Source: Sphaerisporangium sp. (GTDB lineage Bacteria > Actinomycetota > Actinomycetes > Streptosporangiales > Streptosporangiaceae). Taken from it: a stretch of DNA of 64,000 nucleotides. Made by a program: the position numbers and the translations under genes. The first letter of the stretch is position 1. Each line of letters starts with the position of its first letter. Where the stretch lies: positions 1 to 64,000 of the forward strand of contig JAOPYI010000116.1 in the NCBI GenBank assembly GCA_025964675.1, given 5' to 3'. Below are positions 13,400 to 61,959 of this stretch, piece by piece. Under the pieces are notes generated by a model. The model ran no database searches. It was not told where the DNA came from and saw only the letters and a list, made by a program, of their open reading frames with translations.

Positions 13400-13484
13400 G
13401 TCTATCCCCTCTGTGGCGCAAGAGGGGTTATTGTCGCCCTTCGCCCCATTGACGCACCAGTGGTTCTCACCGTAACGTCCAAGC

Positions 13485-13590
13485 GACATTGTTGACGGTG
13501 TGGGGAAGCCAGCGAGACTCTGGCACGGCCGCGCCACTGTGACCGGCCCTTCGGGGCCGGGAGTCAGACCCTCCGTCGTCACCGCCACCC
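13485..13590 (+). ncRNA. Cobalamin riboswitch upstream of cbtB
   Basis: The sequence carries the adenosylcobalamin-riboswitch core in order: GGGGAAGCCAGCGAGACTC (about 13502-13520), then CGCGCCACTGTGACC (about 13531-13545), a GGCCC / GGGCC hairpin, and a B12-box-like GGGAGTCAGACCC (about 13559-13571). The cbtB ribosome-binding site GAGGAGG follows about 25 bases further on, which suggests control of translation or of early termination. The limits given are approximate. It should turn down cbtBA, and perhaps the following biosynthetic genes, when cobalamin is plentiful. Confidence 0.9.
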
Positions 13591-13623
13591 CTTATGGGAC
13601 GCGTGATCCCGAGGAGGCATTTC

Positions 13624-26791: not shown

Positions 26792-26815
26792 CCCGACTTC
26801 TCGCAATAAGTCGGG
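26792..26815. promoter_or_regulatory. Inverted repeat between cobG and the cobN riboswitch
   Basis: Perfect 8-bp arms CCCGACTT (26792-26799) and AAGTCGGG (26808-26815) with an 8-base AT-containing loop. It sits 15 bases upstream of the cobG start and just before the riboswitch that precedes cobN, in the shared divergent promoter zone. It may be an operator for either side. Confidence 0.45.
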
Positions 26816-26831
26816 CTACGTGATCTGATAG

Positions 26832-26982
26832 ACCGCGACGGCACATGGAGGAAGCCGGTGTGAAGCCGGCGCGGTCCCGCCACTGTAACCGGGGAGTCAA
26901 CCCCACCGAAGGCCACTGCCCGAGCGAACGGGCGGGAAGGCCGGGGTGAGCGTCGATCCGGGAGCCAGGAGACTCCAGGCCG
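26832..26982 (+). ncRNA. Cobalamin riboswitch upstream of cobN
   Basis: All core parts of a full-length cobalamin riboswitch are visible in order: GAGGAAGCCGGTGTGAAGCC (about 26848-26867), GTCCCGCCACTGTAACC (about 26874-26890), a peripheral hairpin GCCCG / CGGGC, and the B12 box GGAGCCAGGAGAC (about 26961-26973). A GGGG / CCCC hairpin (26997-27010) comes just before the cobN ribosome-binding site GTGAGGA and may be the expression platform. Limits are approximate. Confidence 0.93.
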
Positions 26983-27025
26983 TGTGGACCACGACCGGGG
27001 CGCGGACCCCGAGTGAGGATGTGCC

Positions 27026-30742
<3,717 letters not shown>

Positions 30743-40861: not shown

Positions 40862-41314
40862 TCAGGCCGTGGCGGAGGCGCAGCCGGGGCAGACGCCGAA
40901 GATCTCCACGGTGTGGTCGACGTCGACGAACCCCGCCTCGGCGGCGACGCCCTCGGCCCACCGCTCGACGGCCCTGCCCTCGACCTCGATGCTGCGCCCG
41001 CACGAGCGGCACGTCATGTGGTGGTGGTGACCGCCGGTCGCGCATCGGCGGTAGAGCGTCTCGCCGCTCTCGTCGCGGATGGCGTCGACGGCCTCGTCCT
41101 CGCTGAGCACCTGGAGGTGGCGGTAGACGGTGGTCAGGCCGACGCGCTCGCCCAGGCGGCGCAGCTCGGCGTGGATCTCCTGGGCGCTGTGGAACCCGGG
41201 CAGCTTGCCCAGCACCGACACCAGCGCCTCGGCCTGCCGGGTGCCCCTGACCCGGGTGCCCCGGGTGGAGGGCCGATCGAGCTGTCGCGACGGTTCGACT
41301 GATTGCGGCGTCAT
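40862..41314 (-). CDS. zur: Fur-family zinc uptake regulator Zur
   Basis: A 150-residue Fur-family repressor. The DNA-binding half has FHSAQEIHAELRRLGERVGL and TTVYRHLQVL. The regulatory site has GGHHHHMTCRSCG and the structural zinc Cys pair is completed by VCPGC near the end. Fur members with this His cluster beside a zinc importer are Zur. Zn-bound Zur represses znu operons. The ATG at 41314 has GGGAGGGG about 6 bases upstream; longer in-frame versions are unlikely. It is divergent from znuA1, and the gap has two Zur-box-like sites. Confidence 0.92.
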   Translation of the reverse strand: MTPQSVEPSRQLDRPSTRGTRVRGTRQAEALVSVLGKLPGFHSAQEIHAELRRLGERVGLTTVYRHLQVLSEDEAVDAIRDESGETLYRRCATGGHHHHMTCRSCGRSIEVEGRAVERWAEGVAAEAGFVDVDHTVEIFGVCPGCASATA

Positions 41315-52412: not shown

Positions 52413-53219
52413 GTGACCGAGTTCGACGCACCTTCAGGAGTGGATCCGTTCACGCCGAGCGTCGCGCGGATGTACGACTATTACCTGGGGGGCAAGGACA
52501 ACTTCGCCGCCGACCGCGAGGCCGCCGAGAAGATCATCGAGATCCTTCCGAACGTCCGTGACGTCGCGCGCGAGAACCGCGATTTCCTGATCCGCACGGT
52601 GACCTACCTCAGCGGGCAGGGCGTCCGCCAGTTCCTCGACGTCGGCGCGGGGCTGCCGACCCAGCGGAACGTCCACCAGGTCGCCCAGGAGCTGGCGCCG
52701 GAGGCCCGGGTCGTCTACGTCGACAACGATCCCATCGTGCTCACCCACGCCCGGGCGCTCCTCGCCCAGAACGAGCGCGTGATGGTCGTCGGCGCCGACA
52801 TGCGTGGCACGCAGGCGCTCCTCGACCACCCGGACGTCCGCTCACACCTCGACCTCTCCCAGCCCGTGGCGGTCCTCCTGCTGGGCGTCCTCCACTTCAT
52901 ACCGGACGACGACGAGGCCATGAAGATCGTTACGACGCTCAGGTCCATACTGGGGCCGGGCGGCTACCTGGTCGTCTCCCACGGCTCCATTGGAGAGCTC
53001 AGCGAGGACGAGAAGCGTGAGGGGGCGCAGGTGTTCAGCCGCACCTCCGCGCCCGGGGTGACCTCCCGGTCCGTCGAGCAGGTGCTGGCGTTCTTCGACG
53101 GGCTCGACCTGGTGCACCCCGGAGTCGTCCCCCTGCAGCGCTGGCGGCCCGAGACGCACCTGTCGATCGTCAGGTCCGGCGAAGCGGGAGCCGTCGGCGG
53201 CGTCGCCCGGGTGTCCTGA
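52413..53219 (+). CDS. SAM-dependent methyltransferase, DUF574 family
   Basis: A 268-residue protein of the actinobacterial DUF574/Methyltransf_19 family. Family hallmarks are PSVARMYDYYLGGKDNFAAD near the N-terminus, VRQFLDVGAGLPTQRNVHQV as the SAM-binding region, VVYVDNDPIVLTHARALL, and ILGPGGYLVVSHG. The substrate of this very large actinomycete family is not known. The GTG at 52413 follows GTGAGGAG and is preferred; an ATG at 52347 would add 22 residues with no family match. It probably has its own promoter after the lysS terminator. Confidence 0.88.
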   Translation: MTEFDAPSGVDPFTPSVARMYDYYLGGKDNFAADREAAEKIIEILPNVRDVARENRDFLIRTVTYLSGQGVRQFLDVGAGLPTQRNVHQVAQELAPEARVVYVDNDPIVLTHARALLAQNERVMVVGADMRGTQALLDHPDVRSHLDLSQPVAVLLLGVLHFIPDDDEAMKIVTTLRSILGPGGYLVVSHGSIGELSEDEKREGAQVFSRTSAPGVTSRSVEQVLAFFDGLDLVHPGVVPLQRWRPETHLSIVRSGEAGAVGGVARVS

Positions 53220-53353
53220 CCCGCTTCTCACCATCTCCGCAGACCCTCGTCCGCGTTTCACACATGCGCGCGCCGGGGGTCTTCGGCATGTATCCGCAGG
53301 TAGACGGGCCGGGTAAAGAATAGCTTCATGATAGGGTGTGTGGAAGAAAAAAA

Positions 53354-53383
53354 TTGACCACCCTGCCCTGGCGCCCGTATGGT
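53354..53383 (+). promoter_or_regulatory. Sigma-70-type promoter of the murQ/peptide-transporter operon
   Basis: TTGACC (53354-53359) and TATGGT (53378-53383) are separated by 18 bases and lie about 30 bases before the first gene of the operon. An A-run just upstream could act as an UP element. Confidence 0.55.
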
Positions 53384-53411
53384 CCTGGCAATCGGGGACC
53401 TGGAGCACTTC

Positions 53412-55202
53412 ATGAAGCGACTCGCAGCGATCACGGCACTGGCGGTGATCATTACAGCCACCGCCTGCGGCACCACCGAGGCCACCGGCACCGCCGGTCC
53501 GGGCGGTATCTACACCACGATCGACGGCGCGAAGCAGATCGACGCGACCGCGCCGATCAACCCGTTCAACCCGCAGGGCAGCACGTTCGTCGGCTATGAC
53601 GCGATGTCGCTGGCCTGGCCCAAGAACGACCTCATGGATCCGAACCAGTTCTACCCCGGCATCGCCAAGAGCTGGACCGCCACGCCCGACCAGGGCGAGG
53701 TCGTCGTGCACCTCCAGCCGAACGCCCGGTGGTCCGACGGCAAGCCGGTCACCAGCGAGGACATCCGCACGTCCATCGGCCTCGCGTACACCCAGGGCGG
53801 CAGCGCGTACACCGTCGACGCAGGTGCGGCCGGCGCCGCCGCCGACATCCAGATCCTGGACGGCAAGACCGTCAAGGTGGTCCAAGGGGCCAACCGCAGC
53901 AACGTGTTCCTCCGGAACGTCCTGTCCACGGTGGTCGTCCCCGCCCATGTCTACGGCTCGCTGCTGCCCGCCGGCTTCTGGACGAAGCTGAAGGCCGCCA
54001 GGGGGACCGGTCCCGCAGCCGAGCAGGCCAAGACGGAGATCACCGGGCTGTCGCAGAAGGTCATCACCTTCGCCCCGCCGAAGGACGTCTCCGCGGGCCC
54101 GTTCGTGCTCGAGCGGATCAACCCCGGCGCGGCGCTGCTGAAGAAGAACGAGTACTTCTACGACGCCGCCAAGATCGTGCCGGACAAGGTGAAGGTCCTC
54201 AACTACACCGGCAACGAGCAGATCTGGAACTACCTGGTCTCCGGGAAGCTGGACAGCGCGCCCTTCACGGCCGTGCCGGCCGCGGTCATGAAGCGGATCA
54301 AGGAGACCCAGGGCAACGGCATCCGCAAGGGCTTCTCTCCGGTGGCGGCGTCCTTGGCGTTCAACCAGGCGCGCAAGCCGTACGACAACGTGCACGTGCG
54401 CAGGGCGCTGGCCTACCTGATCGACAGGAGCCAGGTCACGAAGATCGCCTCCCCCGAGGCCGGGACACCGTCGGTCACCACGACCGGCATCCACGGCAGC
54501 TCCGCCAAGGCCTGGCTGGGCGACGGGCTGGGCACCCTCGAGCCGTACAAGCTCGACCCCGCCAAGGCGGACCAGGAGCTGAAGGCCGCGGGCATGGTCA
54601 AAAAGGGCGGCACGTGGGCGATGCCGGACGGCAAGCCCTGGAAGGTGGAACTCCACGTGCCCGCGTCGTTCTCCGACTGGGTCGCTGCGGCGAAGTCGGT
54701 CACGAGCCAGCTCAACGACCACGGCATCGAGGCCAGCGTGGTCACCTCCGCGGACTACATCCTCTACCTCGACGAGCTGGCGAGAGGGAAGTACGACATC
54801 GGGTTCTGGCTGATGGCACTCGGCCCCTCGCCGTACAACATCTACCAGCGCGTGTACGGCTCGGCCAACGGATGGCAGCTTCTGGCCGGGCAGCTCAGGC
54901 ACTCGCCGCCGGGCAAGAACGGCAACTGGATGGGCGGTCCAGAGACGATCGGCGGGGTGAACCCCGGCGAGCTCACCAGCAGGCTCAACCTGGCCTCGCC
55001 GGCCGAGCAGAAGCGGATCGTCGGCACGCTGGCCAAGCTGACGAACGAGCAGCTGCCCGTCATCCAGATCTACGACTACGTCAACACCCAGTTCGTCAAC
55101 GACACCCGCTACACCGGCTGGCCGGCGGCGGACAGCGAGGCCCTGCGGCTGCCCGCGGGCGTGTGGATGCAACTCGGAATGATCAGGAAAACTAGCCTAT
55201 GA
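53412..55202 (+). CDS. Peptide-type ABC transporter substrate-binding lipoprotein
   Basis: A 596-residue family 5 extracellular solute-binding protein. The signal MKRLAAITALAVIITATACG has a lipobox ending ATAC. Typical parts are FYPGIAKSWTATPDQGEVVV, HLQPNARWSDGKPVTSEDI, VHVRRALAYLIDRSQV and a C-terminal VIQIYDYVNTQFVND. Such proteins bind di- and oligopeptides or other amphipathic ligands. The ATG at 53412 has GGAG 6 bases upstream. The stop overlaps the permease gene (ATGA). Linkage to murQ suggests a peptidoglycan fragment as ligand (inference). Confidence 0.9.
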   Translation: MKRLAAITALAVIITATACGTTEATGTAGPGGIYTTIDGAKQIDATAPINPFNPQGSTFVGYDAMSLAWPKNDLMDPNQFYPGIAKSWTATPDQGEVVVHLQPNARWSDGKPVTSEDIRTSIGLAYTQGGSAYTVDAGAAGAAADIQILDGKTVKVVQGANRSNVFLRNVLSTVVVPAHVYGSLLPAGFWTKLKAARGTGPAAEQAKTEITGLSQKVITFAPPKDVSAGPFVLERINPGAALLKKNEYFYDAAKIVPDKVKVLNYTGNEQIWNYLVSGKLDSAPFTAVPAAVMKRIKETQGNGIRKGFSPVAASLAFNQARKPYDNVHVRRALAYLIDRSQVTKIASPEAGTPSVTTTGIHGSSAKAWLGDGLGTLEPYKLDPAKADQELKAAGMVKKGGTWAMPDGKPWKVELHVPASFSDWVAAAKSVTSQLNDHGIEASVVTSADYILYLDELARGKYDIGFWLMALGPSPYNIYQRVYGSANGWQLLAGQLRHSPPGKNGNWMGGPETIGGVNPGELTSRLNLASPAEQKRIVGTLAKLTNEQLPVIQIYDYVNTQFVNDTRYTGWPAADSEALRLPAGVWMQLGMIRKTSL

Positions 55203-56236
55203 AGCCTTTCGCGGCCCGGGGTGGTCTCCGGGTGAACCCAATGACACGACGGCTCGCGGGTCATCTGGCCCGCGGCCTCGTCATGATCTGGGTGGTCACC
55301 ACGATCAGCTTCGTGATCATCCGTAACATCCCGGGCAACCCCGTCCTCGGGCAGTACGAGACGCTGATCGAGCGTGGCATGTCCCCGGACGCCGCGGAGC
55401 GCGCGACGGCGGCGCTCTACGGCTTCCTGCCTACCGGCACCCTGTGGGAGCAGTACACCGGCTACATGAAGGCCCTGCTCCACCTGGATCTCGGGCAGTC
55501 GCTCAGCACGCCGGGCACCGAGGTCGTCACGCTGATCGGCTCGGCCACCAAGTGGACCGTGCTGCCGGTGCTCGGGGGCACGCTGCTGAGCTTCGTGCTC
55601 GGCGTCACGCTCGGGGTCTACGCGGGCATCAAGCGCTCGGGCAAGCTCGGCGACCTGCTCTCGATCTCCGGCTCGCTGTTGCACGGCGTGCCGCAGTACG
55701 TCATCGGGCTCCTCGTCCTCGCGATCTTCACGACGCTGTGGCCGATCTTCCCCGCGGGTGGTCCCGTCGATGTCGAGTTCGTGCCCGGCCTCAACGCCGG
55801 CTACCTCGCCTCGCTGGTCCAGCACGCCACGCTGCCGGTGCTGACGTACGCGCTGGCCAGCTACGGCGGCTGGGTGCTCGCGATGAAGTCGAGCGTGGCC
55901 ACCGTGCTCGGCGACGACTTCATCCTGGCCGCCGAGCTGCGCGGGCTCTCGCGGGGCGTCCTGTTCAGGTACGTGGCGCGCAACGCGATCCTGCCGCTCT
56001 TCACGATCCTGGCGCTGTCGCTCGGCATGCTCTTCGGCGGCGCCATCTTCATCGAGCGGATCTTCAACTACCCGGGGCTCGGGCTGCTGCTCGTCAACAG
56101 CATCGGCACCCGCGACTACGCCCTGATGGGCGGCACCTTCCTGGTGACCACGATGGCCATCATCGTCGCCAACATCGCGGCCGACCTGTTCTACGCCGTG
56201 ATCGACCCCCGAGTGCGTACAGGAGGCGCGGCATGA
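55199..56236 (+). CDS. ABC transporter permease, DppB-like
   Basis: A 345-residue integral membrane protein of the binding-protein-dependent permease family (OppB/DppB type). It has an N-terminal helix (LVMIWVVTTISFVIIRNIPG) and five more helices. The EAA-like loop is AAELRGLSRGVLFRYVARNA ILP, and FIERIFNYPGLGLLLVNSIG follows. It forms half of the channel. It overlaps its neighbours by 4 bases on both sides. Confidence 0.92.
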   Translation: MKPFAARGGLRVNPMTRRLAGHLARGLVMIWVVTTISFVIIRNIPGNPVLGQYETLIERGMSPDAAERATAALYGFLPTGTLWEQYTGYMKALLHLDLGQSLSTPGTEVVTLIGSATKWTVLPVLGGTLLSFVLGVTLGVYAGIKRSGKLGDLLSISGSLLHGVPQYVIGLLVLAIFTTLWPIFPAGGPVDVEFVPGLNAGYLASLVQHATLPVLTYALASYGGWVLAMKSSVATVLGDDFILAAELRGLSRGVLFRYVARNAILPLFTILALSLGMLFGGAIFIERIFNYPGLGLLLVNSIGTRDYALMGGTFLVTTMAIIVANIAADLFYAVIDPRVRTGGAA

Positions 56237-57144
56237 CGGTGACGACGATCCTCCCGGGAAGCCCGGGGAACACCGGCGCGACCCTGCGGCGCAACTTCTG
56301 GCGGGGCGTCGGGCGAGTGCTGCGCCGCAAGCCCAGCCGGATCGCCGGCGTGGGCATCGTGGCCCTGTTCGGCGCCATGGCACTGTTCGGGCCGATGCTC
56401 TACCCCGCCCACCTGCCACGTGACAACAACGCCCTGTACGCGGCGCCGAGCCTGGCACATCCGTTCGGCACCGACTTCGAGGGCACAGACGTGCTCGCGC
56501 TGGTGGTCACCGGCTCGCGGTACGTCATCCTCACCGGCCTCGCCACCGCGGTCATCACGGTCGCGCTGGGCACGGCGCTCGGGCTGCTCGCCGGCTTCCA
56601 CCGGGGGCGCTGGGACACCGTGCTCATGCGGATCACCGACATGCAGCTCACCATTCCGGGCCTGCCGCTGCTGCTGGTGCTGTCGACCATCTGGAAGTTC
56701 CAGGGGCCGCTCGAGATGGGCCTGGTACTCGGGCTGCTCGGCTGGGGCGGCGTGGCGCGGGCCGTGCGGTCGCAGACCCTGTCGCTGCGTGAGCGAGGCT
56801 TCATCGAGGCCGCCAGGGGACTCGGACTGTCCACCAGGCACATCGTCGGCCGCGAGCTGCTGCCGAGCATGGCGCCCTACATCGCGATGAACGTGCTCAT
56901 CGCCGTGACGGGGGCGATCTACGCCCAGGTGGGCCTGTTCTTCCTTGGAGTCCTGCCGTTCGACTCCAACAACTGGGGCGTGATGCTGAACCTCGCCGTC
57001 TTCGGCGGCGGGGCCCTGACCAGCACGGCCGCGCTGCCGTACCTGCTGGCGCCGCTGCTCGCCATCCTCCTGCTCACGCTGGGCATCGTGCTGATCGTCG
57101 ACGCGATGGACGAGATCTTCAACCCTCGGCTGCGTGAGGAGTAA
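56233..57144 (+). CDS. ABC transporter permease, DppC-like
   Basis: A 303-residue permease starting MTVTTILPGSPGNTGATLRR, with AGGAGG about 6 bases upstream and an ATGA overlap. It has an N-terminal helix, the family motif HPFGTDFEGTDVLALVVTGS, and the EAA loop ERGFIEAARGLGLSTRHIVG. The final helix ends LIVDAMDEIFNPRLREE. It is the OppC/DppC-type half of the channel. Confidence 0.92.
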   Translation: MTVTTILPGSPGNTGATLRRNFWRGVGRVLRRKPSRIAGVGIVALFGAMALFGPMLYPAHLPRDNNALYAAPSLAHPFGTDFEGTDVLALVVTGSRYVILTGLATAVITVALGTALGLLAGFHRGRWDTVLMRITDMQLTIPGLPLLLVLSTIWKFQGPLEMGLVLGLLGWGGVARAVRSQTLSLRERGFIEAARGLGLSTRHIVGRELLPSMAPYIAMNVLIAVTGAIYAQVGLFFLGVLPFDSNNWGVMLNLAVFGGGALTSTAALPYLLAPLLAILLLTLGIVLIVDAMDEIFNPRLREE

Positions 57145-57148
57145 CCCG

Positions 57149-58216
57149 GTGACCACCAACTTTCCCCAGGCCGAGTCCGCCGCCGTGTCTCCCCTGGTCG
57201 CGGCGCCCGGCCACGCCACGGCGCCCGGCGTGCGCGTCAAGGATCTCACCGTCGTCTACAGGACCCCGCTGGGCGAGCTGCCCGCCGTGGGCGGCGTCAG
57301 CCTCACGATCGAGCCGGGCACCATCACCGGCATCGTGGGGGAGTCCGGCTCCGGCAAGTCCACGCTGGCGCTCTCGTTGCTGAACGCCGTCCAGCCGCCC
57401 GGCCGCATCAAGGGCGGCAGCGTCGAGATCGACGGCCTCGGAGACGTCGTGAAGCTCGGCGGCGACGAGCTGCGCCAGGCGCGCGGACGGCACCTCGGGT
57501 ACGTCTTCCAGGCCGCGCAGAACTCCCTCAACCCGCTCAAGACGGTCGGCAAGCAACTACTCGACCTCGGCCGCTCCCACGGCGTCGACGACCTGCGCGC
57601 GCTCGTACGGGACGCCAAGGACCTGCTGGAGCGGATGGGCCTCGACGGAGCCCGCGTGCTCGACTCCCACCAGCACGAGCTGTCCGGCGGGATGCGCCAG
57701 CGCGTCGGCATCATGCTCGCCCTCGTGCTCAACGCCCAGCTCGTCATCCTCGACGAGCCGACCACGGCGCTCGACATGATCACGCAGGCCACCATCCTGC
57801 GGATCGTCCGAGAGGTCCACAAGGAGCGCGGGCTCACGACCCTGATGGTGACCCACGACATCGGCGTGGCGGCGGAGGTCACCGACCGCCTCGCCGTGAT
57901 GTACGGCGGTCGCGTGGTGGAGCACGGTCCCACCATGGAGGTGCTCGGCGCGCCCAGCCACCCGTACACCCGGGGCCTGATCCGGGCGATCCCGCGCCTG
58001 TCCGGCGACATCGCCGAGGCCCAGGCGCTGCCAGGACGGCCGCCCACGCTCGGCACCCTGCCCACGGCGGGATGCGTGTTCAGGGAGCGCTGCCCGCTCC
58101 GCATGGACATCTGCGAGACGGTGGACCCGCGCCCGCTGACCCATGACCGAAGGACCGTCGCGTGCCACGCGGTGGAGCGGTCGCACTCCACGGCGGAGCA
58201 GGAGGAATACGCGTGA
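57149..58216 (+). CDS. ABC transporter ATP-binding protein, DppD-like
   Basis: A 355-residue peptide-importer ATPase. Walker A is GESGSGKSTLALSLLNAV, the signature is HELSGGMRQRVGIMLAL, and Walker B is AQLVILDEPTTALDM. The C-terminal oligopeptide-importer domain has RGLIRAIPRLSG, GCVFRERCPLRMDIC. The cysteines there could hold an iron-sulfur cluster as in some DppD proteins. The GTG at 57149 follows GAGGAG by 7 bases; an in-frame GTG at 57134 is less likely. Confidence 0.92.
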   Translation: MTTNFPQAESAAVSPLVAAPGHATAPGVRVKDLTVVYRTPLGELPAVGGVSLTIEPGTITGIVGESGSGKSTLALSLLNAVQPPGRIKGGSVEIDGLGDVVKLGGDELRQARGRHLGYVFQAAQNSLNPLKTVGKQLLDLGRSHGVDDLRALVRDAKDLLERMGLDGARVLDSHQHELSGGMRQRVGIMLALVLNAQLVILDEPTTALDMITQATILRIVREVHKERGLTTLMVTHDIGVAAEVTDRLAVMYGGRVVEHGPTMEVLGAPSHPYTRGLIRAIPRLSGDIAEAQALPGRPPTLGTLPTAGCVFRERCPLRMDICETVDPRPLTHDRRTVACHAVERSHSTAEQEEYA

Positions 58217-59220
58217 TCACAGGCACCGGCATCACCAAGACCTTCAAGCAGCGCGGCGACGTCCTCGGCGGCCGCGACGTGCGGGCCCTGCGCGGGATCG
58301 ACTTCGCCATCGAGAAGGGCGGGGCCGTCTCGTTCATCGGCGAGTCCGGATGCGGCAAGACCACGCTCGGGCGGATCATCGCCGGGCTGGAGAGCTGGGA
58401 CTCCGGCGAGATCGTGATCGACGGCACGCCGATGTCCTCGCTCCGTCCGAGGCGCCGGCAGCCGTACTTCCGCAAGATCCAGCTCATCCACCAGGACCCG
58501 TACTCCGCCCTCAACCCGACCCGGACGATCTACCAGACCCTCCAGGCGCCGCTCGCCCTGCGCGCGCGCCAGGCCGGCCGCCCGAAGTCGTGGATCGGCG
58601 AGCGCGCCGAGGAACTGCTCTCCCTGGTGGGCATCGACCCCGGGTACGTCCTCGGCCGGTACCCGCACCAGCTCTCAGGCGGCATGCGCCAGCGCGTGGT
58701 CATCGCCCGCGCGCTGACCGTTGACCCCGAGATGCTCGTCGCCGACGAGTCGGTCTCGATGATCGACGTGTCCATGCGGCTGAGCATCCTCGCCCTGCTC
58801 AAGGATCTTCGCGAGCGGCTCGGGGTGAGCGTGCTGTTCATCACCCACGACATCGCCACCGCCAGGTACATCGGCGCCGAGGGCGAGCTGTATGTGCTCT
58901 ACCGGGGGCAGGTCGTGGAACGCGGGCTCACCGAGAGCATCATCACGGGCCCCGTGCATCCGTACACCCAGTCGCTGCTGTCGGCCATTCCCGTCCTGCA
59001 CGGGCTGGAGCAGCCCGGACCCGAGCGGGTCGTGCCGACCGAGGCCCTCGACGAGCGCCACGCGGACGAGGGATGCCTGTTCGCCCGCAGGTGTCCCTTC
59101 CGCACCGAGCGTTGCGAGAAGGAGCGGCCGGCGCTGGTGCGGGGCGTGGAGGTGGCGCACGAGCGCGCGTGCTTCCACCCGCAGCGCCGGAGCGTGATCC
59201 CCGTCGAGGCGGTCGCGTGA
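58213..59220 (+). CDS. ABC transporter ATP-binding protein, DppF-like
   Basis: A 335-residue ATPase starting with GTG that overlaps the previous stop. Walker A is GESGCGKTTLGRIIAGLE, the Q-loop is IHQDPYSALNPTRTIYQ, the signature is HQLSGGMRQRVVIARA, and Walker B is PEMLVADESVSMIDV. The C-terminus has GCLFARRCPFRTERC, the cysteine motif of oligopeptide importers. It overlaps the GNAT gene by 4 bases. Confidence 0.92.
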   Translation: MITGTGITKTFKQRGDVLGGRDVRALRGIDFAIEKGGAVSFIGESGCGKTTLGRIIAGLESWDSGEIVIDGTPMSSLRPRRRQPYFRKIQLIHQDPYSALNPTRTIYQTLQAPLALRARQAGRPKSWIGERAEELLSLVGIDPGYVLGRYPHQLSGGMRQRVVIARALTVDPEMLVADESVSMIDVSMRLSILALLKDLRERLGVSVLFITHDIATARYIGAEGELYVLYRGQVVERGLTESIITGPVHPYTQSLLSAIPVLHGLEQPGPERVVPTEALDERHADEGCLFARRCPFRTERCEKERPALVRGVEVAHERACFHPQRRSVIPVEAVA

Positions 59221-60140
59221 GCGGCCTCAGCCCTGACGACCGTCCCGCGACGCCGGTGACGGGCATCCGTCCCGCCGTGCCCGCCGAGCTGCCCGCCGTC
59301 GGCGAGCTCGCTCGGGCCGCGCTCACTCTGGACGCCTCGGAGGCGCCTCAGATCGTCTCGCGGCTATCGGCTCCGCCCGAGGGACGCCAGTGGACGGCCC
59401 TGGTGACGCCGGATCTGCACGGCGTCGTGTTCGCGTCCACGTCCTCCACCGAGGGCGTGGGCCATGTGGACCTGCTCGCCGTACACCCGTCCGCTCAGGG
59501 CCGGGGCGTCGGCAGGACCCTGGTCGGGGCGGCCGAGGGCTGGCTGCGCGAGCAAGGGGTGCGCGAGGTGCGCCTGGCCGGCAACCCTCCCTGCTACGCC
59601 TGGCCGGGCGTCGACGTGCGCTACACCCCGGCGAGCTGCCTGGCCGAGAGCCTCGGCTATGAGCGGTACCGCACCGCCTGGAACATGACAGCCGACCTCT
59701 CGGGATACGTGCCGGGCGGCGCGGACCGGCCGTCGGGCGAGGAGCTCGCCCGGCTCGCCTCGGCCGGGGTCGCCCTCCATTCGGCGCCCGCCGGCGAGCG
59801 CTCGGCGGTGATGGAGTTCGCCAGGGAGCACTGGAACGACGCGTGGGCCTGGGAGGTGGCGCAGGCGAGCGGCTGCCACTACGCGACCCGGCACGGGGAG
59901 ATCCTGGGCTTCGCCGCCTGGGGAGCCCGGCCAGGCTGGTTCGGGCCGATGGGCACGGCCGAGGCCGCTCGTGGGCTCGGGGTCGGCGGGGTCCTGCTGC
60001 GGCGATGCCTGGAGGAGCAGGCGTTGGCCGGGCAGCGCAGCGCCCAGATCGGCTGGGTGGGGCCGGTGCGCTTCTACGCCAGAGCCGTCGGCGCGCGCGT
60101 GGAACGCGTCTTCTGGCTCTACCGCCGCACCCTCGCCTGA
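59217..60140 (+). CDS. Tandem GNAT acetyltransferase
   Basis: A 307-residue protein with two GNAT domains. The first (about residues 16-145) has the acetyl-CoA loop HPSAQGRGVGRTLVGAAEGW. The second (about 160-305) has TAEAARGLGVGGVLLRRCLE and a final PVRFYARAVGARVERVFWLY. The GTG start overlaps the upstream ATPase gene. Its place between a peptide-type transporter and murQ suggests acetylation of an amino sugar or peptide from cell-wall turnover, which is inference; the acceptor is unknown. About 86 bases separate it from murQ. Confidence 0.88.
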   Translation: MSGLSPDDRPATPVTGIRPAVPAELPAVGELARAALTLDASEAPQIVSRLSAPPEGRQWTALVTPDLHGVVFASTSSTEGVGHVDLLAVHPSAQGRGVGRTLVGAAEGWLREQGVREVRLAGNPPCYAWPGVDVRYTPASCLAESLGYERYRTAWNMTADLSGYVPGGADRPSGEELARLASAGVALHSAPAGERSAVMEFAREHWNDAWAWEVAQASGCHYATRHGEILGFAAWGARPGWFGPMGTAEAARGLGVGGVLLRRCLEEQALAGQRSAQIGWVGPVRFYARAVGARVERVFWLYRRTLA

Positions 60141-60226
60141 CCGTTCTCCCGCCGCCGGCCTCCCACGGTCGGCGGCCACACGGCCGGCGAACCATTTCGA
60201 CGATCCGCCCGGAAGATTGAGGAGTC

Positions 60227-61144
60227 ATGAACCGACCAGGTGCCGCTCTGGCCACGACGGAACAGAGTGATCCGCGTTACCGCCGGATCGACAGGCTGCC
60301 GACCGACGAGATCGCGCGGCTCATGAACGCGGCCGATTCCACGGTGCCGGCGGCGGTGGCCAGGGCGGTCCCGCGGATCTCTGCCGCGATCGACGGGATC
60401 GCCGCCCGGATGCAGGACGGCGGGCGGCTGTTCTACGTGGGTGCCGGCACGTCCGGACGGCTCGCCGTGCTGGACGCCTCGGAGTGCCCGCCGACCTTCG
60501 GCACCGATCCTGAGGTGGTGCGCGGCATCATCGCCGGGGGAGTGGAGGCGCTGACCCGGTCCGTCGAGGGGGCGGAGGACGACGCCGAGGCGGGCGCAGC
60601 CGCCATCCGGGAGCAGGGCGTGGGACCGCTGGACTCGGTGGTGGGGATCTCTGCGAGCGGCCGGGCCCCGTTCGTGCTCGCCGCGGTGGCCGAGGCCCGC
60701 CGTCTCGGCGCGCTGACGGCCGGTCTGTCCTGCAACACCCGCGTGCCGCTGTCCGAGGTCGCCGACCATCCCATCGAGGTCATCGTCGGGCCCGAGGTGG
60801 TGACCGGTTCGACACGGTTGAAGGCCGGGACCGCGCAGAAGCTGGTCCTCAACATGATCTCGACGATCTCGATGATCAAGTGCGGCCGGACCTTCGGGAA
60901 CTACATGATCGAGGTTTCCGCGAGCAACACCAAGCTGGTCGACCGGGCCGCCCGCATCGTCGGCGACATCACCGGCGCCGACATCTCCGTCGCCCGCCTC
61001 GCCCTGGAGGCCGCGGGACACCAGGTTAAGACCGCCGTGGTGATGCTCGAACGCCACCTCGACGCCGACGAGGCGCGCCTGCTGCTCGCGGCCTTCGGCG
61101 ACCGGCTCGACAGCGCCCTGGAGGCCCGCCCCCAGGGCGCCTGA
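60227..61144 (+). CDS. murQ: N-acetylmuramic acid 6-phosphate etherase
   Basis: A 305-residue SIS-domain enzyme. The hallmark block is FYVGAGTSGRLAVLDASECP followed by PTFGTD, with the catalytic Glu in ASECPP. Further matches are VDSVVGISASGRAPFVLAAV, GLSCNTRVPLSEVADHPIEV and STRLKAGTAQKLVLNMISTI. It cleaves the lactyl ether of MurNAc 6-phosphate, giving GlcNAc 6-phosphate and D-lactate, the key step of MurNAc recycling. It closes the operon that encodes a peptide-type importer. No MurP-type PTS protein, MurK kinase or RpiR/MurR regulator is in the window. Length is normal. Confidence 0.95.
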   Translation: MNRPGAALATTEQSDPRYRRIDRLPTDEIARLMNAADSTVPAAVARAVPRISAAIDGIAARMQDGGRLFYVGAGTSGRLAVLDASECPPTFGTDPEVVRGIIAGGVEALTRSVEGAEDDAEAGAAAIREQGVGPLDSVVGISASGRAPFVLAAVAEARRLGALTAGLSCNTRVPLSEVADHPIEVIVGPEVVTGSTRLKAGTAQKLVLNMISTISMIKCGRTFGNYMIEVSASNTKLVDRAARIVGDITGADISVARLALEAAGHQVKTAVVMLERHLDADEARLLLAAFGDRLDSALEARPQGA

Positions 61145-61169
61145 CCGCCTGGCGGGTCGTCAACGGGTG

Positions 61170-61185
61170 GCCGCACGGGTGCGGC
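61170..61185 (+). terminator. Hairpin after murQ
   Basis: Arms GCCGCA (61170-61175) and TGCGGC (61180-61185) around a CGGG loop, 26 bases after the murQ stop. It probably ends the transporter-murQ transcript. Confidence 0.4.
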
Positions 61186-61359
61186 GTGCGGGCCGGGCTC
61201 CGAGGAAGGCCGACGGTACGGCGAGGTACCTGCTGACCCGGGGGGCGTTCACGACAAGGACGGCTCCGGCTCCGGATGTGTGACATCCCCCGTGTACGAA
61301 CCCTCGGGATCCGGGGGCGCTGGAGTCCGCGGGACGGTGAGCATGCATAATCCACACTC

Positions 61360-61959
61360 ATGTCTCCCGCGATCGAACTGATGTGGCCCACCGGGGCCGA
61401 TGACGCCCTGCGCGACGAGGTCCAGCGGGTCGTGCATGCTGTGGTCGAGCTCGGCGGCGCGGTCGGCTACGTGAAACCGCCTGGCAGGGACGAGACCGAC
61501 CCCTTCCTGGACGGCGTCCTCGCCGACGTTCGCCGCGGTCGCGCGGCGCTGGCACTGGCACGGGTGGACGGCGCGGTCGAGGCCATGGGTCTGTGGAGGC
61601 GGGCGAGCTCACAGCTCTTCGAGCACTCGGCCGAGGTCGGGAAGGTCATGGCGCATCCGTCGGCACGCGGTCTCGGGCTCGGCCGCCTGATCGTCGGCGC
61701 CCTCATCGAGAACGCCCGGGCGGCGGGCGTCGAGACGCTGACCCTGGGCACCCGTGGCAACAACCATGGTGCGATCGGGCTGTACGAGGAACTGGGCTTC
61801 CGTGTATGGGGGCGGTTGCCCAACGTCATCGAGATCGGTGACGAGCGCTTCGATGACGTTCGCATGTTCGTGGACCTGGGCAGGGGCCCTGAGGTCGTGC
61901 TCCGGGGGTCGGCGCCCGGCGGTGTGGGCTCCTCGCCACGCCGTACGCCCCGCCCGTAG
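61360..61959 (+). CDS. GNAT-family N-acetyltransferase
   Basis: A 199-residue protein. The acetyl-CoA binding motif is MAHPSARGLGLGRLIVGALI (RxxGxG), followed by LTLGTRGNNHGAIGLYEELG and FRVWGRLP, typical of GNAT enzymes. The acceptor is unknown. A CATAAT hexamer at 61346-61351 lies so close to the ATG that the mRNA may be leaderless, and no ribosome-binding site is seen. About 30 C-terminal residues after MFVDLGRGPEV are low-complexity. Confidence 0.85.
   Translation: MSPAIELMWPTGADDALRDEVQRVVHAVVELGGAVGYVKPPGRDETDPFLDGVLADVRRGRAALALARVDGAVEAMGLWRRASSQLFEHSAEVGKVMAHPSARGLGLGRLIVGALIENARAAGVETLTLGTRGNNHGAIGLYEELGFRVWGRLPNVIEIGDERFDDVRMFVDLGRGPEVVLRGSAPGGVGSSPRRTPRP

Follow-up and report, generated by a model that had tools for sequence, protein, structure and literature searches.

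Among the 64,000 nucleotides of Sphaerisporangium sp. DNA analysed here (contig JAOPYI010000116.1, positions 1 to 64,000; hereafter the window), a run of seven same-strand genes, 53412–61144 (+), encodes an SBP_bac_5 binding protein, two BPD_transp_1 permeases, two oligo_HPY ATPases, a tandem GNAT acetyltransferase and MurQ, and this operon belongs to a conserved muramic-acid salvage cluster of the Streptosporangiaceae. We think that its ATP-binding cassette (ABC) importer is a part of N-acetylmuramic acid (MurNAc) salvage, because of its gene linkage, its partner genes and a shared regulatory motif; the context supports such a role well, and we would put its probability at roughly 0.7. Gene content, conserved linkage, the shared motif and the nearest sequences and folds are established by computation, while every substrate, activity, enzyme location and regulator–operator pairing we infer. 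An earlier note on this DNA had already recognised importer, acetyltransferase and murQ in one run ending at 61144, and the domains do indeed lie on one strand, although seven genes are counted here and not six. Its functional idea was also largely right: the uptake of muropeptides that it proposed agrees with MurNAc salvage as judged by linkage, partners and motif, with a muro-disaccharide at least as likely, whereas the anhydro-sugars that it offered as an option are less likely here, where no AnmK is found.

The association of importer and murQ is not a matter of chance: the binding protein was found at 60 places, spread over 56 of 150 family genomes, and at 57 of these places murQ follows downstream on the same strand within 10 kb; the earlier note had suggested a survey of synteny, and the linkage is kept. 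These 60 places are the rows above 300 bits out of 69 listed, nine weak rows having been dropped; the murQ linkage used rows of about 59% identity or more, and some counts drawn from match tables are counts among the matches listed. Also within 10 kb are GNAT at 55 places, NamZ at 29, and NagZ and a BadF-type kinase at 23 each, the last two counts applying to the orthologous type (higher-identity rows, most of the second paralog group of each excluded). All but one of the 29 linked NamZ genes sit between GNAT and murQ on the opposite strand. The fullest order, in L188 (G022; G, C and L numbers are our labels for genomes, contigs and loci), is kinase-nagZ-rpiR-binding protein-permease-permease-ATPase-ATPase-GNAT-namZ (opposite)-murQ-serine hydrolase; L190 (G059) has the same order and L189 (G033) the same without namZ. 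Gene calls in relatives' loci and on contig C223 came from a home-made codon-score script, with labels from BLAST matches to window or C223 genes. Among named relatives the linked set is found in Sphaerisporangium, Microbispora, Streptosporangium, Sphaerimonospora (no GNAT seen), Nonomuraea and Thermoactinospora; in S. rufum (L006) no murQ was seen behind GNAT, and Actinocatenispora (L021) has the importer and neither murQ nor GNAT in the stretch examined. Four genomes (G084, G097, G119 and G123) carry two importer–murQ units, one unit of each pair being without a detected GNAT. Across the class the importer occurs in 18 of 394 genomes, four of them outside the family, and in these four a GH3 NagZ-like gene stands directly behind the ATPases (Pfam check in one, L184).

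In the organism's own genome the partner genes sit on another contig, C223 (L113), which bears an RpiR regulator (HTH_6 plus SIS), a leaderless GH3 NagZ, a GHL10 protein and a BadF kinase. The two-locus split is real, because in G031, a single-contig relative, the binding protein lies at 5.70 Mb, and NagZ and the kinase at about 3.10 Mb. RpiR is encoded beside nagZ in the own genome, and in relatives it occupies the place between nagZ and the binding-protein gene. In genus g4, whose NamZ puts it nearest to the Nonomuraea loci, kinase matches reach 42–45% only, or there are none. A sequence search of the own genome found no NamZ, the serine hydrolase has no close copy there (best match 35%), and AnmK gave 0 matches (G000). 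We set aside an anhydroMurNAc route for this genome, since no AnmK was found and a BadF-type sugar kinase is linked instead. AnmK occurs in 6 of 11 genomes of the genus, beside a different murQ in G129 (L118) and G148 (L119), and in some other genomes (L195–L198) it is a hub-locus gene that neighbours the kinase, GHL10 or NagZ. For the serine hydrolase the best curated model is PBP4B (2.1e-26, far under the cut-off), which we take to be YfeW. According to PMC5061867, yfeW, the gene of a penicillin-binding protein, forms part of the operon of murQ in E. coli. The GHL10 (PF02638) protein, which has a Tat-like start, is repeatedly divergent from nagZ at this hub locus (L113 5907–7490, L134–L143, L191–L193, L195, L197 and L198 among others), and it may be an extracellular enzyme producing the imported fragments.

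A shared operator-like motif ties the operon to the nagZ–rpiR locus. The motif is a matrix 17 bp wide, built from 15 sites that lie between nagZ and GHL10 in 11 other genomes; these sites were chosen by eye after the binding-protein upstream regions had been viewed, and the two best matches of the matrix in the window lie directly ahead of the operon (see the table). It also matches C223 at 5713 and 5755, and in 17 of the 20 named loci scanned its first-ranked match stands ahead of the binding-protein gene, the misses being L007, L010 and L021 (there are 22 named loci, of which L008 and L016 were excluded for miscalled starts). An unsupervised search of the same 11 regions yields a best motif with the identical top match in the window; among the five distinct unsupervised motifs shown, three have their first-ranked match in the window in the region ahead of the operon, and two shifted versions place that region fourth. 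We suppose that RpiR is the protein binding this motif.

The binding protein gives one clue to what the importer carries. By class it is a Dpp/Opp-type ABC importer, having SBP_bac_5, two BPD_transp_1 permeases and two ATPases with oligo_HPY, and in this respect the earlier description of a peptide-type DppABCDF system is true of the ABC family. However, the binding protein is not DppA or OppA proper, its best NCBIfam equivalog score being 61.6 bits against a cut-off of 650 (Opp4A; for DppA, 35.1 against 1005), and its nearest solved relatives, by profile and by fold, are mannoside- and chitooligosaccharide-binding proteins. A profile search puts Thermotoga maritima TM1223 at the top (7e-34), then Vibrio chitooligosaccharide-binding proteins (about 1e-29), with Opp and Dpp behind. 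Fold comparison of the model (Foldseek, VIA-align) agrees: 1zu0 scores Z 28.4 (3.6 Å over 489), TM1223 (1vr5) 26.8 (3.2 Å over 491), NikZ 26.6 (3.0 Å over 460) and Dpp 24–25, the nearest folds, here and for GNAT below, being those among the matches listed. By similarity, therefore, the protein would belong to a sugar-binding branch of a nominally peptide-type family, and because sugars are the ligands of the closest solved proteins, the chance that it binds a muro-disaccharide is no smaller than for a muropeptide. Intact muro-disaccharides or muropeptides are probably what is imported.

The location of the glycosidases points the same way, because cytoplasmic glycosidases need a substrate that has been brought in, and this favours a di- or oligosaccharide as the cargo. 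A cytoplasmic place looks likely for NagZ in the own genome and for the NamZ and hydrolase of relatives: NamZ and the hydrolase of the importer cluster start without leaders, the hydrolase domain beginning at residue 10 or 24; in the outside-family clusters the GH3 domain begins at residue 2. In a sister cluster (L130 in G104:C3 and L132 in G144:C2), which has a GH3 NagZ-like gene, NamZ, hydrolase, a distant murQ, SBP_bac_1 with two permeases and RpiR, the GH3, NamZ and hydrolase proteins begin with Tat- or Sec-like leaders. These leader calls were made by inspection, without a signal-peptide program, and a crude hydropathy score separates the NamZ copies and not the hydrolases. The sister cluster is thus an apparent 'digest outside' version, and the contrast predicts 'digest inside' and 'digest outside' strategies. 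A further arrangement in the same genus (L118 in G129:C1 and L119 in G148:C12) combines a different SBP_bac_5 importer with murQ (59–65%), AnmK, a serine hydrolase, a fused ATPase and a divergent RpiR (HTH_6 plus SIS); judged by its genes, it is a second, independent peptide-family importer tied to murQ.

The acetyltransferase, which the earlier note had modifying a product, can be refined to a glucosamine/glucosaminide-type tandem GNAT, although one GlmA active-site residue is absent. Its profile search is led by the glucosamine N-acetyltransferase of Clostridium acetobutylicum (4e-12), followed by the Rhizomucor miehei NAGase in its GNAT region (5.7e-12) and then by 3tt2 (2e-5). The model (predicted local distance difference test, pLDDT, 86.8) matches 4zm6 (Z 22.6, 3.1 Å over 285) and 5kf2 (Z 21.4, 2.8 Å over 269), with 3tt2 (20.8) and 2wpx (20.7) both tied with 5kf2 and MshD at 18.3, so that GlmA and RmNag are the nearest tandem GNATs and the ranking is clear by sequence and almost tied by fold. 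The counterpart of GlmA Tyr297 is Tyr in all 24 GNAT sequences. Passages of the R. miehei paper state that bacterial enzymes of this type recover non-acetylated sugars ahead of NAGase cleavage, and the GNAT–nagZ linkage fits that statement (PMC4680927). Two genomes without a binding-protein match hold GNAT orthologs of about 63% (L121 8804–9655 and L122 4847–5701), the former near a Pterin_bind (dihydropteroate-synthase-like) gene; GNAT can therefore exist apart from the cluster.

Taken together, the operon would supply uptake and etherase, one half of a system that salvages muramic acid from peptidoglycan. The lipid-anchored binding protein would capture a soluble peptidoglycan fragment, most likely N-acetylglucosamine (GlcNAc)-MurNAc with or without peptide, for import by the DppBCDF-type machine; inside the cell NagZ, whose gene is on C223 here and adjoins the importer in many relatives, would take off GlcNAc, the BadF-type kinase would phosphorylate MurNAc and probably GlcNAc too, and MurQ would convert MurNAc-6P to GlcNAc-6P and D-lactate. 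To deal with peptides and with MurNAc ends, relatives would add cytoplasmic NamZ and an AmiE/PBP4B-like serine hydrolase. The tandem GNAT probably puts N-acetyl groups back on fragments that have lost them, making these usable by NagZ and kinase, and the RpiR/MurR-type regulator beside nagZ probably controls both loci via a common operator. The more ambitious claim, which we hold tentatively and at a little short of an even bet, is that a hitherto undescribed ABC importer brings whole muro-disaccharides or disaccharide-peptides into Gram-positive actinomycetes, with a binding protein drawn from the oligosaccharide-binding branch, and that it is wired to cytoplasmic NagZ, NamZ, amidase-like hydrolase, kinase and MurQ and to an N-acetyl-restoring tandem GNAT with a non-GlmA active site.

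Other explanations have of course to be weighed. We consider it unlikely that the importer takes peptide-only murein tri- or tetrapeptides, like MppA or DppE, and that murQ adjoins merely as a fellow wall-recycling gene: the subunits are of DppBCDF type, and the fold matches include 8ay0, a structure of DppE with murein tripeptide, but the sugar binders come ahead of Dpp/Opp among solved binding proteins and the conserved partners among classified neighbours are glycosidase and sugar-kinase genes. Rather less likely again is an importer of chitooligosaccharides whose later amino-sugar breakdown (NagZ, kinase, GNAT) is common to it and to MurNAc salvage, a proposal that can appeal to the Vibrio proteins as closest folds, to the resemblance of GNAT to that fused to the fungal NAGase and to the outside-family clusters with their GH3 NagZ-like gene and no recognised murQ, and that has to contend with the muramic-acid specificity of the MurQ and NamZ families and with murQ at 57 of 60 places. 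MurQ itself passes the TIGR00274 equivalog cut-off over full length (363.2 bits against 302, positions 2–291 of 291), and its residues 9–298 align with the solved etherase 4lzj. It is the sole MurQ-like match in the own genome apart from a 33% match on C223, rejected as a second MurQ because it is the RpiR regulator.

It is very improbable that murQ is a separate transcription unit trailing an unrelated importer operon in Sphaerisporangium, since the whole cluster is conserved over many genera and since in G031 and G033 the stop codon of GNAT and the start codon of murQ share the sequence ATGA; the 86-nucleotide gap ahead of murQ (60141–60226) favours it, as do the namZ relatives, where murQ is divergent from namZ and its start must be in that intergenic region. 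The earlier note had held that a murQ promoter of its own would tell against the idea, and the namZ relatives accordingly lean one way and the ATGA overlaps the other; here one sigma70-like promoter was found in 52900–61400, ahead of the binding protein (0.4 expected in shuffles). Several observations weigh against our preferred assignment of the importer to muramic-acid salvage. No motif site stands in front of murQ itself in a matrix scan of the 64-kb window; murQ is not nearby at three of the 60 places (G129, G078 and G105), and none was recognised in the 19 kb read at the four outside-family clusters, so MurQ is not the importer's sole partner. The top solved match of the kinase is a hexokinase (2e2n, 3.5e-21), tied with a MurNAc/GlcNAc kinase (8zo3, 4.7e-21), and the importer-bearing G003, G009, G028 and G039 show no kinase match at 1e-30. 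Confidence in the binding-protein model is middling (pLDDT 77), and nickel and peptide binders (NikZ, AppA) score just about 2 Z under its top match. In GNAT the counterpart of GlmA Asp287, an Asp named in a PDB mutant title, is Gly in 17, Ser in 4 and Ala in 3 of 24 sequences, so that acceptor or mechanism may differ from GlmA; GNAT is also missing or broken in some clusters and hence not essential, being cut to 91 residues in G058 (L131 7717–7992) with the rest of the cluster intact and matched solely in pieces in G130, G149 and G133. It seems dispensable.

Known systems offer instructive parallels for the importer, and for these we take ybbC of Bacillus subtilis to be NamZ. The B. subtilis mur operon is given as murQ-murR-murP-amiE-nagZ-ybbC in the sections of PMC5061867 on which we draw. 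Shared with it are MurQ in the window, the MurR-type regulator and NagZ on C223, and NamZ and an AmiE-like hydrolase in relatives; here, however, an ABC importer replaces the phosphotransferase system (PTS) transporter MurP, the hydrolases are apparently cytoplasmic and not extracellular, and kinase and GNAT are added. That an importer stands in place of a PTS had been remarked before, and a domain scan of the operon indeed finds no PTS gene in it, a genome-wide search for PTS MurP not having been made. NagZ, MurK and GlmA presumably form a gene cluster in C. acetobutylicum. Our leaderless NagZ, BadF-type kinase and tandem GNAT of glucosamine N-acetyltransferase fold resemble that trio as described in parts of PMC4974736, PMC4680927 and PMC10465942. 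Asp287 of C. acetobutylicum GlmA is not conserved here, and the importer and MurQ linkage belong to this cluster. The Vibrio chitooligosaccharide-binding protein, though the nearest fold, has about 19% identity to our binding protein. A precedent for an ABC muropeptide importer is YejBEF-YepA of Agrobacterium, in the account given by portions of PMC9790009, and ours would work like it as a peptide-family importer of muropeptides feeding cytoplasmic NagZ, here as judged from the genes. It is no member of that system, because its ATPases are two separate genes (single ATPases of 181 and 160 bits against a cut-off of 834 for double-length YejF); the sugar-branch binding protein and the linkage to murQ, GNAT and, in relatives, rpiR differ as well.

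Why might this matter? According to passages of two papers, Streptomyces coelicolor has MurQ and recycles MurNAc with no MurP ortholog (PMC5061867), and MurP is absent from the Mycobacteriales tested as well (PMC13041923), which raises the question of how muramic acid enters actinomycete cells. The cluster offers a candidate importer, regulator and kinase in the Streptosporangiaceae, and a plausible route for bacteria without the usual sugar-uptake system; with its binding protein in 56 of 150 family genomes, it does not alone explain Streptomyces. The open-licence literature that we searched yielded no description of the cluster, which is a weak negative.

The layout of the operon is given in the table. 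Four junctions show possible 4-nucleotide overlaps (55199–55202, 56233–56236, 58213–58216 and 59217–59220), much as the earlier note had it for its first five genes, and its near-miss at the ATPase start becomes an 11-nucleotide overlap of second permease and first ATPase if GTG at 57134 serves as start. The operon does not begin at 53354, as had been proposed: TTGACC at that position is the promoter's −35 and the ATG at 53379 is inside its −10, so both were rejected as binding-protein starts, and translation probably begins at ATG 53412, behind which, as in relatives, comes a lipoprotein-like signal.

Table. Features of the importer–murQ operon and its upstream region in the window
Feature	Position	Strand	Basis
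Operator-like motif, best window match	53313..53329	-	rank 1 of all positions, both strands; matrix from nagZ-locus sites of other genomes
Second operator-like match, overlapping −35	53344..53360	-	rank 2, same matrix
Sigma70-like promoter TTGACC-18-TATGGT	53354..53383	+	promoter scan; identical sequence in several Sphaerisporangium relatives
Substrate-binding lipoprotein, SBP_bac_5 (cluster C), sugar-binding branch by similarity	53412..55202	+	domain profiles, signal, similarity
ABC permease, DppB/OppB type	55199..56236	+	domain profiles
ABC permease, DppC/OppC type	56233..57144	+	domain profiles
ABC ATPase, DppD/OppD type (oligo_HPY)	57134..58216	+	domain profiles; start codon uncertain
ABC ATPase, DppF/OppF type (oligo_HPY)	58213..59220	+	domain profiles
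Tandem GNAT, nearest to glucosamine N-acetyltransferases	59217..60140	+	profile and fold similarity
murQ, MurNAc-6-phosphate etherase	60227..61144	+	above TIGR00274 cut-off

Elsewhere in the window there are two cobalamin riboswitches (Rfam RF00174), at 13479–13591 and 26808–26994, the second directly ahead of a CobN gene (27026–30742, PF02514). Between 40862 and 47876 two adjacent ZnuA-type (PF01297) metal ABC systems stand beside a Fur-family gene (40862–41221), and they probably represent duplicated zinc or manganese uptake.

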